Below, in pieces: positions 16,553-60,028 of a DNA stretch of 64,000 bases. Position numbers and translations under genes: made by a program. The DNA lies in the NCBI RefSeq assembly GCF_001592085.1, contig NZ_BCWD01000009.1, positions 1 through 64,000 on the forward strand, written 5' to 3'. Within the stretch, counting starts at the first letter, position 1. Every line of letters begins with the position of its first letter. This DNA is from Levilactobacillus senmaizukei DSM 21775 = NBRC 103853. Lineage in GTDB: Bacteria; Bacillota; Bacilli; Lactobacillales; Lactobacillaceae. Below the pieces are notes generated by a model. It did no database searches and was not told the origin of the DNA. It was given only the letters and a program-made list of their open reading frames with translations.

Positions 16553-17011
16553 ATGGATAAAATGACCCTCGACCCCCACTATGATGATGACTGTATTTTT
16601 TGTAAGATTTTGAAAGGTGATATTCCCAGCTACACTGTGTACGAAGACAATGTGGTCAAAGCCTTCCTCGACATCTCGCAAGGAACCCCAGGTCATACGT
16701 TAGTCATCCCTAAAACCCATGTAGCCGACATCTTTGCTTACGATACTGATCTGGCAGCAGTCGTTTTCTCGCGGATTCCCAAGATTGCTCGGGCCGTCAA
16801 GGCAGCTAATCCCGACATTACCGGAATGAATATTGTCAATAACAATGGTGAAGTGGCTTACCAATCCGTCTTCCACTCACACTTCCACTTAGTCCCGCGG
16901 TACACGGATCATGATGACTTTAAGATGATTTTCAAGGATAATTCTGATAATTACTCCCCTGCAGATTACCAAGCCATCCAAGCAAAAATCAAAGCCCAAT
17001 TGGAGGATTAA
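16553..17011 (+). CDS. hit: HIT family nucleotide-binding hydrolase
   Basis: The 152-residue protein has the N-terminal CIFCKILKGDIPSYTVYED segment and the histidine-triad HSHFHLVPR near residue 108. HIT proteins hydrolyse nucleoside phosphoramidates or AMP conjugates; the physiological substrate is unknown here. GAAGGAG precedes the ATG. The next small gene begins two bases after its stop. Confidence 0.92.
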   Translation: MDKMTLDPHYDDDCIFCKILKGDIPSYTVYEDNVVKAFLDISQGTPGHTLVIPKTHVADIFAYDTDLAAVVFSRIPKIARAVKAANPDITGMNIVNNNGEVAYQSVFHSHFHLVPRYTDHDDFKMIFKDNSDNYSPADYQAIQAKIKAQLED

Positions 17012-46665: not shown

Positions 46666-47145
46666 ATGTCAAAAGTTTCACCAGTACTGTTGGACGAACA
46701 ACTCTGTTTCTCCATTTATTCTGCTAGTAAGAAGTTTAATCACTTTTATCAGAGTGCCCTGGCACCCTTTGGGTTAACTTACCCTCAATATATTGCCCTC
46801 TTAGTCTTGTGGGAAGATGCCCCACTCACCGTTCATCAATTGGGCGATCGGCTTGAACTCGACAGCGGAACGTTGACCCCTCTGTTAAAACGTTTGGAAA
46901 AACAAGGTTGGGTTGAACGGGTCCGGAGTCGGACAGACGAACGTCAAGTACTCATTCATCTTACTGATATGGCAGCGGCTAAGCGTGACGAAGTCTACAC
47001 GCGAATTGGTCAGTGCCAGTCACTGTTAGGCATGTCCGATGATGAAATCAACATTATGATGACCGAATTGGTGACGGTCAAACAACAACTGGATGACGTC
47101 AGCAACCAACGTAAGATTGCTAAGGAAGTCGATAAGCGTATTTAG
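46666..47145 (+). CDS. MarR family regulator, OhrR-like
   Basis: The 159-residue protein starts with the OhrR-type LLDEQLCFSIYSASKKFNHFY, where the single reactive Cys (Cys14) senses organic peroxides in Bacillus OhrR. The winged helix is in LTVHQLGDRLELDSGTLTPLLKRLEKQGWV with wing RSRTDERQVLIHLT. No ohr peroxidase gene is in view, so its target may be elsewhere. AGGAGG precedes the ATG. A terminator followed it until an IS split that hairpin. Confidence 0.85.
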   Translation: MSKVSPVLLDEQLCFSIYSASKKFNHFYQSALAPFGLTYPQYIALLVLWEDAPLTVHQLGDRLELDSGTLTPLLKRLEKQGWVERVRSRTDERQVLIHLTDMAAAKRDEVYTRIGQCQSLLGMSDDEINIMMTELVTVKQQLDDVSNQRKIAKEVDKRI

Positions 47146-47248: not shown

Positions 47249-47932
47249 ATGCCTAGAACTAGATTTACAGCTATGGAGAAGCTTGATATTTTAACTGGTC
47301 TATCACAGACCAACCTAACCAGAGCCAAATACCTTGAGCGACACGGTATTCATCGCTCTACTATTCGGACCTGGAAGGAACACTACAAACGTGAAGGCCT
47401 CGACGGCCTAGAAGAACGTCACAGCTGGACACGTTACAGTGAAGAGGCCAAACGACAAGCCGTAGAAACGTATCTAAATGGCAAGGATAGTTTAGCTGAA
47501 ATTCGTAATCGTTTTGGATTGAGGAGCACTAAGCAACTTCGCGACTGGATCAATAAATTCCAGTATAATGGGACCAATAAATCATTGACGGCTACGCCGT
47601 CAAGAAGGCAGGTCCGCATTATGAGTCGTAAAACGACATTCGAAGAACGAATTAAGATTGTGGAGTACGTCACGGCTGGAAAGCATTCGTACTCTCAAGC
47701 AGCTGAACACTTCAACGTTTCTTACCAACAGGTAAGATCCTGGGTTCTCAAATCTAAAGATGGTGGCTATAAGACATTAAAGGATAGGCGTGGACGCACT
47801 AAACCAATTGAAGAGATGACTGAGGTTGAACGTCTAAAGTTAGAGAATCGTCAACTAAAGTCCCAGCTCAAGGAACAGGAGGTAATGGAGTTCTTCGCAA
47901 AAAAATTCCGAGAACTACAGAACAAGGAGTGA
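47249..47932 (+). CDS. IS3-family OrfA, helix-turn-helix protein
   Basis: The 227-residue protein has two HTH segments (LTRAKYLERHGIHRSTIRTWKEHYK and YSQAAEHFNVSYQQVRSWVLKSK) and a C-terminal leucine-zipper-like tail (VERLKLENRQLKSQLKEQEVMEFF), as in IS150-type InsJ. It binds the IS ends and fuses to OrfB by frameshifting. Its stop overlaps the orfB GTG. Confidence 0.9.
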   Translation: MPRTRFTAMEKLDILTGLSQTNLTRAKYLERHGIHRSTIRTWKEHYKREGLDGLEERHSWTRYSEEAKRQAVETYLNGKDSLAEIRNRFGLRSTKQLRDWINKFQYNGTNKSLTATPSRRQVRIMSRKTTFEERIKIVEYVTAGKHSYSQAAEHFNVSYQQVRSWVLKSKDGGYKTLKDRRGRTKPIEEMTEVERLKLENRQLKSQLKEQEVMEFFAKKFRELQNKE

Positions 47933-48826
47933 ACGCCCAACATAAATTAGTATTCCAGACGATCCAGGAACTCGGTCCACTGATTCATGGAGCCCAAGCC
48001 ATTATCCTTCGAAAAGTGGGTCTATCTCGCCAAGCATTTAATCAATGGCTTCATCGTGAAGAAACCCCTTGGGAGCAACAAGAAACGTTACTCAAACAAA
48101 AGGTACTTCTGCATTTCAACAAGCATCGGCAAAGAATTGCTGCAGGAAAACTGAAAATTTACCTCGACCATGATACGGAACTCAACTTTTATGTCTCCCC
48201 TAAGCGTGTTAAGCGGCTTATGACCCTCCTCCATCTCAAGTGTCAAAGTAGAGTGAAGAAACATCATCATGTGAAGCAAGCTGAACAAGAATTGCGAGAT
48301 AACGTATTAAACCAGCGGTTTAATATGACAACTAAACCAAATGAAGTGTGGCTATCGGACGCCACTGAGGTTCATTATGGTATCAATGGCGAGTACAAGG
48401 CCCGTTTATGTGGGGTACTTGATCTACATGGCAGGTACCTTTTATCTTACAATCTGAGCGTCACTGAAACTAGTGACGCAATGATTGAGACCTTCAAACG
48501 AGCTTTCAACAAAGCTGGAGAAGCTCATCCAATTTGTCCATACGGACCGTGGCTCGGCATACACTTCCAAGGACTTTAATAGCCTGATGACCGAACACAA
48601 AGTTATTCGGAGTATGTCACGACCAGGAACACCGTACGATAACGCTCCAATGGAGCGTTGGTGGAACGAATTCAAGTCAAACTGGTTGGACAGCCATCCA
48701 TTGCCTAAGACTAGGGAAGAGCTAATTAGGCTCATCGAGGAAGGCATTTACTACTTCAACTACATCGATCGCACAGCACAAAGAAACGGCTCCACCGCGG
48801 TTGAATACCGTGGTGAGGCCGCTTGA
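47929..48826 (+). pseudogene. IS3-family OrfB transposase, frameshifted
   Basis: The first part (47929-48579) encodes an HTH_21-like start and the first catalytic Asp in WLSDATEVHYG. At 48533-48535 an extra T in AATTTG shifts the frame. The second Asp (VHTDRGSAYTS) and the Glu (PMERWWNEFKSNW) are in the next frame to 48826. Removing one T restores HPIVHTDRGSAY, so this copy is very probably inactive. Confidence 0.88.
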
Positions 48827-49598: not shown

Positions 49599-49788
49599 TT
49601 GTTCGTTCCTTCCCTTTTTGTTGTCCAACCTTACTAACATGGTCAAAGTAGCCGATCCCATCAGCCCGCGCTTTCCATTAGTTAGTAACTTTGACGTCCA
49701 GTTATTATATATTTTTTGATAGCAATTTCATAAAATGTGCGGTACTATATGGTTGCGGGCATGTTTAAGGAAACTTTTACTTGTTCGT

Positions 49789-49924
49789 GAGGTTTCTGTC
49801 CTCATTCAACAGACAGATTTCATTTTACTCCCCCAAAGTAGATGAAATTTTTTACAACATAATCCCCCAATTATGTTGTAACCTTACTCTTTGGCCATTG
49901 CGACTTATCGTAATGGCTTTTTTT
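49789..49924 (+). ncRNA. Candidate small RNA with C-rich hairpin loops and terminator
   Basis: No gene is seen here on the plus strand. Hairpin 2 (49817-49848) pairs ATTTCAT/ATGAAAT and ACT/AGT around loop CCCCCAA. Hairpin 3 is a perfect 12-bp stem (49852-49863/49870-49881) with loop CCCCCA. A strong terminator follows (GCCATTGCGA/TCGTAATGGC, 49894-49917, then seven T). A weaker 5' hairpin (49795-49813) exposes CCTC. The T-run exists only on the plus strand, which fixes the orientation. The 5' end and promoter are not certain. Repeated C-rich loops are the pairing seeds of several Gram-positive sRNAs that block Shine-Dalgarno sequences. Confidence 0.6.
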
Positions 49925-50156
49925 GTGTCGTTTTTTCATCAGCAAGGTCATCTTTTTCCGTTGTCATAGGACGATAGCGTCCCCAAGTCAGCCAAAGCGC
50001 GGCTAAGTCGGCTACCGTCGCCGCGATCATTCCCACCAGACCAATCAGTACTTTTAACCAGATTAACTTGGCCCAGGTCACCATTAACCAAATGGTTAGG
50101 CCGATGATTAACGTAGATAGTGGAATCATCCACAACCAAGCCTTAAACATCTTCAC
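49905..50156 (-). CDS. Small two-TM membrane protein of unknown function
   Basis: The protein of about 83 residues has two hydrophobic segments (WLWMIPLSTLIIGLTIWLMV and VLIGLVGMIAATVADLAALWL) and a charged tail. A GTG at 50156 has AAGGAG eight bases upstream; an ATG two codons later is also possible. Its 3' end overlaps the terminator of the candidate plus-strand RNA. I do not recognise a family. Confidence 0.6.
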   Translation of the reverse strand: MKMFKAWLWMIPLSTLIIGLTIWLMVTWAKLIWLKVLIGLVGMIAATVADLAALWLTWGRYRPMTTEKDDLADEKTTQKKPLR

Positions 50157-50252
50157 AAGCAATGCTCCTTCCCTGTCAATCACATATGTCAAATCTTACC
50201 ACGTTTACCCCCGTTATTCGAAGGAAAGTGACGAGATGGGTGCGTTCACTTC

Positions 50253-58662: not shown

Positions 58663-59850
58663 TTACTTGCAAAATTTTTGTAAAGCATCAACCTTGTCCA
58701 ATTTTTCCCAAGGCAAGTCAATGTCGGTCCGACCAAAGTGGCCGTATGCGGCGGTTTGTTCGTAAATTGGCCGCTTAAGATCTAACATTTCAATGATGCC
58801 GGCTGGACGTAAATCAAAGAATTTCCGAACGGCTTCGGCTAACTTGCTTTCGGTAACCTTACCCGTTCCAAAGGTATTGATAGAAACCGAGACCGGTTCG
58901 GCTACACCAATCGCGTAGGCAATTTGGACCTCACATTCAGTGGCCAACTTAGCAGCAACGATATTCTTTGCGATGTAACGCGCCGCGTAGCTAGCAGAAC
59001 GGTCAACCTTCGTAGCATCCTTACCTGAGAAGCAACCACCACCATGATGGGCAGCACCACCGTAGGTATCCACGATGATCTTTCGACCGGTTAAACCGGC
59101 GTCACCTTGAGGGCCACCAATAACGAACCGACCGGTTGGATTGATAAAGTACTTCGTCTTATCATCTAACAATTCGGCTGGAATCGTGGGCTTAATCACT
59201 TGTTCAATAACATCTTGACGAATTTGATCCAAGGAAGCTTCGGGATCGTGTTGGGTACTCAGAACAACAGTGTCTACTCGCATAGGCTTGTTGTTTTCGT
59301 CATACTCGACCGTCACTTCAGTCTTGGCATCTGGCCGCAGATAATCAATGGCCCCTGTCTTCCGCAACATCGCAATCCGTTGCATTAAGGCATGGCTCAG
59401 GGTAATTGGAAGAGGCATCAACTGTGGCGTTTCGTCAACAGCGTAACCAAACATTAACCCCTGGTCCCCAGCACCAATTTGGTCCAGTGGATCAGCATCA
59501 CCAGAACGCGTTTCTAAGGAGTCATCAACCCCTTGGGCAATGTCGGGTGATTGTTCATCGATAGCTACTAGCACGGCACAATTGTCACCATCAAAGCCGT
59601 ATTGACCATCTGTGTAGCCAATCCGCTTAATGGTATCCCGGACGATCTTTTGAATATCAACGTAAGCCTTGGTTGAAACTTCACCAAAGACCAGTACTAA
59701 ACCCGTCGTCACGGACGTTTCACACGCCACTCGTGAATCTGGGTCTTGGGTCAGCATAGCGTCCAAAATAGCGTCACTGATTTGATCAGCGATCTTATCA
59801 GGATGTCCTTCAGAAACAGATTCTGAAGTAAATAAATGTCTTTCTTGCAA
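58663..59850 (-). CDS. metK: S-adenosylmethionine synthetase
   Basis: The 395-residue enzyme has [47 protein letters not shown] and [13 protein letters not shown], all catalytic signatures. It makes SAM from methionine and ATP. The start is TTG at 59850 with AGGGGG eight bases upstream. That SD is part of an SMK riboswitch, so SAM shuts off its translation. Confidence 0.96.
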
Positions 59851-59855
59851 TGGAT

Positions 59856-59952
59856 ATTCCCCCTAGATTGAGTTGACGCGAGTTGACCGATAATCTCGCA
59901 GTCATTCGGTTACAAGGCAGCTTCACTGGGTTCGTGAATCCTATCGGGAATT
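59856..59952 (-). promoter_or_regulatory. SMK box (SAM-III) riboswitch of metK
   Basis: On the minus strand the core motifs appear in order: ATTCCCGATAGGAT (59939-59952), a short hairpin TTCAC/GTGAA, GCTGCCTTGTAACCGAA, and the SD AGGGGGAAT (59856-59864). GGGAAT pairs with ATTCCC when SAM binds and hides the SD. Between CCGAA and the SD lies a linker of about 40 nt that forms its own GCGAG/CTCGC hairpin, longer than in the crystallised Enterococcus version. Confidence 0.9.
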
Positions 59953-60028
59953 GACTCATAACTCAAGAAGTTTAACATAAATCAATTGAAGTTTAAAGCC
60001 GGCCACTTGTTTTTTTCACAAACAAGCA

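Follow-up and report, generated by a model that had tools for sequence, protein, structure and literature searches.

The element described here lies on the plus strand of a 64,000-nt stretch of Levilactobacillus senmaizukei DNA, called the window below, between a divergent gene for a CPBP (Rce1-like) protease and a minus-strand ORF (49905-50192) whose 3' end shares bases with the terminator of the element. Further 5', IS3-type-transposase-like genes at 47249-48826 separate the CPBP gene from a MarR-like gene (46666-47145), and the second IS3-type transposase frame seems to be split across two overlapping ORFs. In L. tangyuanensis (L063), the MarR-like and CPBP genes are close neighbours. Elsewhere in the window, a SAM-III (SMK box) riboswitch was found on the minus strand (59848-59966, 54.2 bits). 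The parts of the element are collected in Table 1.

Table 1. Features of the element in the window and of the upstream regions of its relatives
Feature	Position	Strand	Description
Conserved weak promoter	49719-49748	+	-35-like ATAGCA (49719-49724), 18-nt spacer, -10 TACTAT (49743-49748)
Predicted sRNA transcript	49755-49924	+	~170 nt; start from the -10 and the 5' hairpin, end from the terminator
Variable 5' hairpin	49757-49786	+	Compensatory changes among Levilactobacillus copies
Nearly invariant 5' block	49786-49816	+	CGTGAGG..CCTCATTCAACAGACAG; 31 copies vary at two positions
Hairpin B	49816-49850	+	Loop CCCCCAA at 49830-49836; core TTACTCCYCCAAAGT common to the family
Hairpin C	49852-49881	+	Loop CCCCCA at 49864-49869
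C/U-rich linker	49882-49892	+	CCTTACTCTTT, between hairpin C and terminator; similar in relatives
Intrinsic terminator	49893-49924	+	Stem 49893-49918, 11 pairs, 4-nt loop; T run to 49924
Direct repeat of family upstream regions			TTCAYA-N5-TTCAYA-like, TTCACACTTTCTTCACA repeat, 9 nt 5' of the -10

The initial annotation had proposed a candidate sRNA at 49789-49924 with two adjacent hairpins exposing C-rich loops, and both of these, hairpins B and C, were found. The minimum free energy of this segment was -41.1 compared to -17.4 +/- 3.1 in 200 dinucleotide shuffles (z -7.7), and 0 of the 200 shuffles reached the value of the native sequence. The plus-strand terminator with its T run was also found to close the element at 49924, although its stem has 11 pairs and not the ten first counted; the loop in the window copy is CUUA and is not C-rich. 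When the stem was read on the minus strand, no T run followed it. The initial annotation had noted that the terminator overlaps the end of the minus-strand gene without being the terminator of that gene. A third, 5' hairpin showing CCTC had been annotated as well. The region is conserved, and in the alignment of 31 Levilactobacillus copies the block can also be written CGTGAGG...CAGACAG, but the proposed structure has alternative foldings and hardly varies. In RNAalifold, the invariant GUGAGG pairs with CCUUAC of the linker, and an alternative partner, CCUCAU, is located just downstream. The two pairings, within 49786-49892, could act as a switch, with the linker seed masked in one state and accessible in the other.

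To define the 5' end, we used an alignment of 31 Levilactobacillus copies out of the 34 distinct copies extracted. Conservation starts well 5' of 49789, with a block round TGCGGTACTATA (49738-49749), followed by a variable stretch, the nearly invariant block and the hairpins. The -35 and -10 hexamers of the window copy were picked by eye on this alignment, and the start of the transcript was placed near 49755 because of the position of the -10. From sequence, the transcript thus probably covers 49755-49924 (fold z -6.5) and starts about 35 nt 5' of the originally annotated 49789. The statement that there is no good promoter holds by consensus, since the five promoter-like sites are all on the minus strand, but overlooked a weak promoter that is conserved. 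The variable 5' hairpin showed changes on both sides in 4 of 7 modelled pairs, with 93.1% of cells paired. As a control for the whole structure in Levilactobacillus, 45 of 500 shuffles reached 4 such pairs and 0 of 500 reached 21 both-side cells. Hairpins B and C are near-invariant within the genus, leaving almost no covariation there.

The element belongs to a group that we define here as the Lactobacillaceae C-rich-loop sRNA family. A DNA search matched 49 of 301 Lactobacillaceae genomes, outside Levilactobacillus often with hairpin B alone. The exact core TTACTCCYCCAAAGT was present in 124 of 397 genomes and 15 of 40 genera, at no more than 5 copies per genome, compared to nine matches counted for the reversed control pattern in the 397-genome table; all 25 Levilactobacillus genomes carried it. 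When one genome per species was scanned (84,980 species), 101 stretches with the core were found. Among the 80 of these that were listed with titles, 77 came from Lactobacillaceae and three did not, and the genera listed include Levilactobacillus, Lactiplantibacillus, Lacticaseibacillus, Secundilactobacillus, Loigolactobacillus, Latilactobacillus and Agrilactobacillus. Searches of plasmid and phage collections gave no match to the element in either.

A covariance model, R1, was built from eight copies at eight loci of one genus, by inference Lacticaseibacillus, and contains no Levilactobacillus sequence. Its sole match in the window was the element, at full length (49816-49923, model positions 1-103, 40.7 bits, E 3.7e-6). 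Over 100 chosen sources, R1 gave 100 matches in 92; the eight without a match were the three non-Lactobacillaceae core records, L165, L191, L194, L195 and L058, the last of which was missed despite having the exact core. Within Lactobacillaceae, R1 matched 98 of 301 genomes, from 15 of 40 genera; across the order Lactobacillales, it matched 91 of 295 genomes (29 of 74 genera), the highest copy number in a genome being 12. These 91 genomes comprise 16 in Lactobacillaceae and 75 in five other families. Twenty R1 stretches from the other families were 66-77 nt long and had no hairpin C, and some were in tandem. At L247 and L261, from two genomes of a different Lactobacillales family, three and four near-identical copies stand in tandem at a 195-bp spacing. 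Conservation of the loops and stems in relatives, the check proposed in the initial annotation, was strong, and the sRNA reading is well supported.

By sequence, the window copy is assigned to the Levilactobacillus 'type C' members (loop CUCCCCC) of this multicopy family. A divergent CPBP gene was found upstream of type C at 28 of 32 named Levilactobacillus loci and at 9 of 14 other named loci, with incomplete loci scored as misses; this synteny is evidence that the type C copies of Levilactobacillus and Lactiplantibacillus are orthologous. A second family copy in the source genome has CTCCTCC and is located upstream of a gene whose product begins like a metallophosphatase.

At curated thresholds, no Rfam family covers the element. 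A permissive Rfam scan gave six sub-threshold matches, the best being LhrC, tsr26 and Ref84; the tsr26 model scored 24.2 bits compared to a cut-off of 141. The listings of a literature search showed no description of the family, though the supplementary sRNA tables of PMC8220740 may contain members, and the loop sequence appeared only in papers that by their titles were on other subjects. The family is very probably large, uncurated and new, although its kind, a multicopy, C-rich, Shine-Dalgarno (SD)-directed sRNA that is often under two-component control, is already known.

Aligned with MAFFT, diverse copies did not line up by structure and gave only 5 consensus pairs, so hairpins were anchored by scripts and the covariance model was used. 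The R1 alignment has 90 distinct rows. Of its 2268 cells, 94.6% pair, compared to 61.6% in shuffled alignments and 31-47% with slid structures, and there were 826 both-side-changed cells compared to 234. Both-side changes affected 22 pairs, only slightly more than the 20.1 of the shuffles. The terminator showed such changes in 9 of 9 modelled pairs across the family.

Because the R1 alignment is fitted to the model and leans towards it, hairpin C was re-tested without the model. A script parsed 87 full-length copies using hairpin B and the linker, whose own conservation in this set is partly due to the way the copies were chosen and is no evidence alone, but not hairpin C. These copies contained 39 distinct 7-nt 5' stem arms of hairpin C. 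Among 64 distinct segments of hairpin C, best stems averaged 10.1 pairs compared to 4.6 in mononucleotide shuffles, and the stem score of the segment itself was reached by 34 of 3200 shuffles. CCC was within the loop in 53 of the 64 segments, compared to 303 of 3200 shuffles (9.5%), and was absent from the loop in 11. The terminator loop contained CCC in 49 of the 87 copies, with the window copy not among them. An earlier count on 44 distinct hairpins gave 341 of 350 pairs, 45% with swapped arms, and CCC in 33 of 44 loops compared to 8.6%; that count takes the best stem per segment, making its pairing high partly by construction, and the 64-segment shuffle test is the fair control. Outside Levilactobacillus, hairpin C has another stem and a loop that is mostly still C-rich. 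Judged from these alignments, the stems of hairpin C appear to have been replaced almost completely while the C-rich loops were mostly kept. This amounts to a natural experiment suggesting that the loop, and not the stem, does the work. We take the stretch to be, very probably, a genuine sRNA gene of lactic acid bacteria.

The upstream regions of relatives carry a direct repeat that was scored as [TG]TCA[CT][AC]-N5-TTCA[CTA]A in 164 distinct upstream regions, three chance records included. It was found in 93 of 131 regions, namely 77 of 115 of type T and 16 of 16 of type C outside Levilactobacillus, compared to 4 of 3280 mononucleotide shuffles. The second half of the repeat ends 9 nt 5' of a -10-like hexamer in 67 cases. 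The second copy in the source genome carries the repeat as GTCACATTTTCTTCACA. A TTCAYA direct repeat was absent before the window copy and from all 33 Levilactobacillus type C upstream regions (0/33), and no tandem TTTAAG (CiaR box) was found 5' of the window -10 on reading the sequence. When TTCACANTTTCTTCACA was searched with at most 1 mismatch in 14 chosen genomes, 13 of the 23 places found precede a family sRNA.

A perfect TTCACAATTTCTTCACA box was also seen in the source genome near 91397 (L165), followed by a short stretch with a terminator-like hairpin and, by eye, no C-rich loop, 5' of a gene for a protein that begins like a secreted one. At L191 and L195, both of one genus, box-preceded short regions have C-rich or family-like sequence without an R1 match, and at L183 in Levilactobacillus a similar box-preceded region has no core. 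The regions at L191, L195 and L183 are possibly further sRNA types of the same regulon.

The repeat and its spacing have the geometry of a direct-repeat site for an OmpR-type response regulator, as described for CiaR in the relevant part of PMC3091779. Three known regulators were considered. The repeat resembles a PhoP box, but 7 of 14 pstS-like loci in seven genomes carried a box, six of them TTTACA-N5-TTTACA and one TTAACA-N5-TTAACA, and none TTCACA, so PhoP control was not adopted. CiaR control was rejected, because the CiaR box (NTTAAG-N5-WTTAAG) differs in sequence from the TTCAYA-N5-TTCAYA-like repeat, and because the Cia distribution contradicts it: Table 3 of PMC3040137 gives no Cia system for L. 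plantarum or L. sakei, whereas the core is carried by Lactiplantibacillus (L. plantarum included) and Latilactobacillus loci. For control of the listerial LisR type, the LhrC promoters differ by eye in sequence and spacing. In the same Table 3, Cro, Eta and Yyc systems occur in almost every species and Pho in many, so no single regulator is named here. The RNA structure, the family membership, its multicopy nature and the promoter architecture are all shown by comparison between genomes.

We consider it likely that the element is a trans-acting regulatory sRNA of about 170 nt, a plus-strand type C member of the family with a conserved promoter and its own terminator, in which C-rich loops and linker act as anti-SD seeds. 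Transcription would start at the weak promoter and stop at the terminator. The unpaired loops and the linker would then serve interchangeably as seeds, pairing with the G-rich ribosome-binding sites of several mRNAs and keeping translation from starting there. Many family members, but not the window copy, would be switched on by an OmpR-type regulator binding the TTCAYA-N5-TTCAYA-like repeat. What suggests this anti-SD mechanism is analogy, together with the retention of C-rich loops. The source genome contains 57 TTGGRGGA-spacer-ATG sites, one of which is the complement of the element itself, compared to 8 reversed-control sites; SDs are G-rich anyway, and C-rich seeds fit many of them. By the strict pattern, the window has one site besides the complement of the element, before a 106-aa ORF at 17000. 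Of 30 sites that were fetched, 19 lead into an open frame of 60 aa or more, and the products of five of these 19 begin, by eye, like secreted proteins. Such candidate products would fit an envelope role.

Alternatively, the C-rich loops may bind a protein or another RNA, as a sponge or decoy, and not the SD sites of mRNAs. We judge this to be unlikely. CsrA-type sites are GGA and not CCC, and on inspection, the loops and the linker read as complements of SD-like sequence. It is true that protein-titrating RNAs of the Csr/Rsm kind are likewise built of repeated loops on replaceable stems, a comparison likewise drawn in the text on LhrC, but a similar LhrC layout was shown to pair with SDs (relevant sections of PMC4132741 and PMC5880928).

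That the element is only a cis-acting or structural one, either a long terminator region or a cis-antisense RNA to ORF 49905-50192, is very improbable. The terminator does cover the last bases of this ORF. However, where the ORF was found at other Levilactobacillus loci it was mostly 26-46% identical (70.5% in the nearest), tblastn did not find its product next to any of the 14 named type C copies outside Levilactobacillus, the stem on the minus strand has no T run after it, and copies of the family are located in many contexts, many with their own promoter. Least likely of all is a small-protein or dual-function gene: short open frames exist, but those that span 12 codons or more vary in their start (GTG, TTG and rarely ATG) and length over the 34 Levilactobacillus copies, with no conserved ORF found among them, in line with the initial reading that no gene is encoded, and the compensatory changes favour structure.

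Knowledge of sRNA regulation in lactobacilli seems sparse. The L. paracasei BL23 survey (PMC8220740) names one earlier report only and finds most sRNAs to be group-specific by BLAST. A multicopy family defined by structure and spread across many genera, often with a site like that of a response regulator, would represent a layer of control conserved among food and probiotic bacteria, and it could tie together sRNAs that are now known separately in enterococci and Listeria.

Among the known sRNAs, Ref84 (RF02846, Enterococcus sRNA 84) has a similar order of parts, with a UUUUUCAUUUUACUC hairpin, a UACUCCUUUU linker and a terminator. Its model scored 20.5 bits on the window element (E 2.3 in 311 bases), below the gathering score of 52, and matched 94 of the 295 Lactobacillales genomes, with no Lactobacillaceae genome among them. 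At 20 Ref84 loci, the hairpin B loop had no run of at least 3 C, there was no hairpin C, and no TTCAYA repeat was evident by eye. Conversely, R1 gave its sole match in each of these 20 loci at the place of Ref84 (E 0.02-0.33), the two models match the same coordinates at several places in other families of the order, and 12 of 19 scanned R1 stretches from those families match Ref84 below the cut-off of 52 (33.9-45.1 bits). From these sequence matches, a remote common origin of the family and Ref84 seems likely. The name 'Ref84' was not found in the literature search.

The LhrC1-5 model (RF00616; Listeria, LisRK-controlled) scored 24.8 bits on the element (E 0.099), below its gathering score of 110, and above its cut-off it matched in the order, among the matches listed, one family only, by inference Listeriaceae. 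In LhrC, several equivalent C/U-rich sites were shown to pair with SDs (the same sections of PMC4132741 and PMC5880928), and this feature of redundant C/U-rich sites in loops and single strand recurs here in CCCCCAA, CCCCCA and CCTTACTCTTT; the LhrC promoter sequence is, by eye, unlike the family promoters. The csRNAs of streptococci share with the family the multicopy state, stretches complementary to SDs and the layout of an OmpR-type site, being controlled by CiaR on repeats with an 11-bp spacing according to the relevant part of PMC3091779.

These likenesses allow a tentative and somewhat doubtful extension, namely an ancient post-transcriptional regulon across Lactobacillales, in which one OmpR-type regulator on TTCAYA-N5-TTCAYA would mainly drive the C-rich-loop sRNAs, 1-12 in each genome. 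Ref84 would be a local descendant or replacement, as perhaps would LhrC and the csRNAs, and Levilactobacillus type C would have left the regulon and gained a new promoter. The extension is slightly less likely because the strict repeat was found in only 11 of 26 regions outside Lactobacillaceae, several from a single genus.

A C-rich seed is also the idea behind staphylococcal RsaE and Bacillus RoxS, to which the initial annotation had likened the element. Neither was among its Rfam matches, the permissive search included, and Ref84 and LhrC were nearer. The nearest known relatives are, distantly, enterococcal Ref84 and, in architecture, listerial LhrC, and not RsaE/RoxS. The best reading, by analogy, is that the sRNA of the window would work like LhrC or the csRNAs while being a member of neither.
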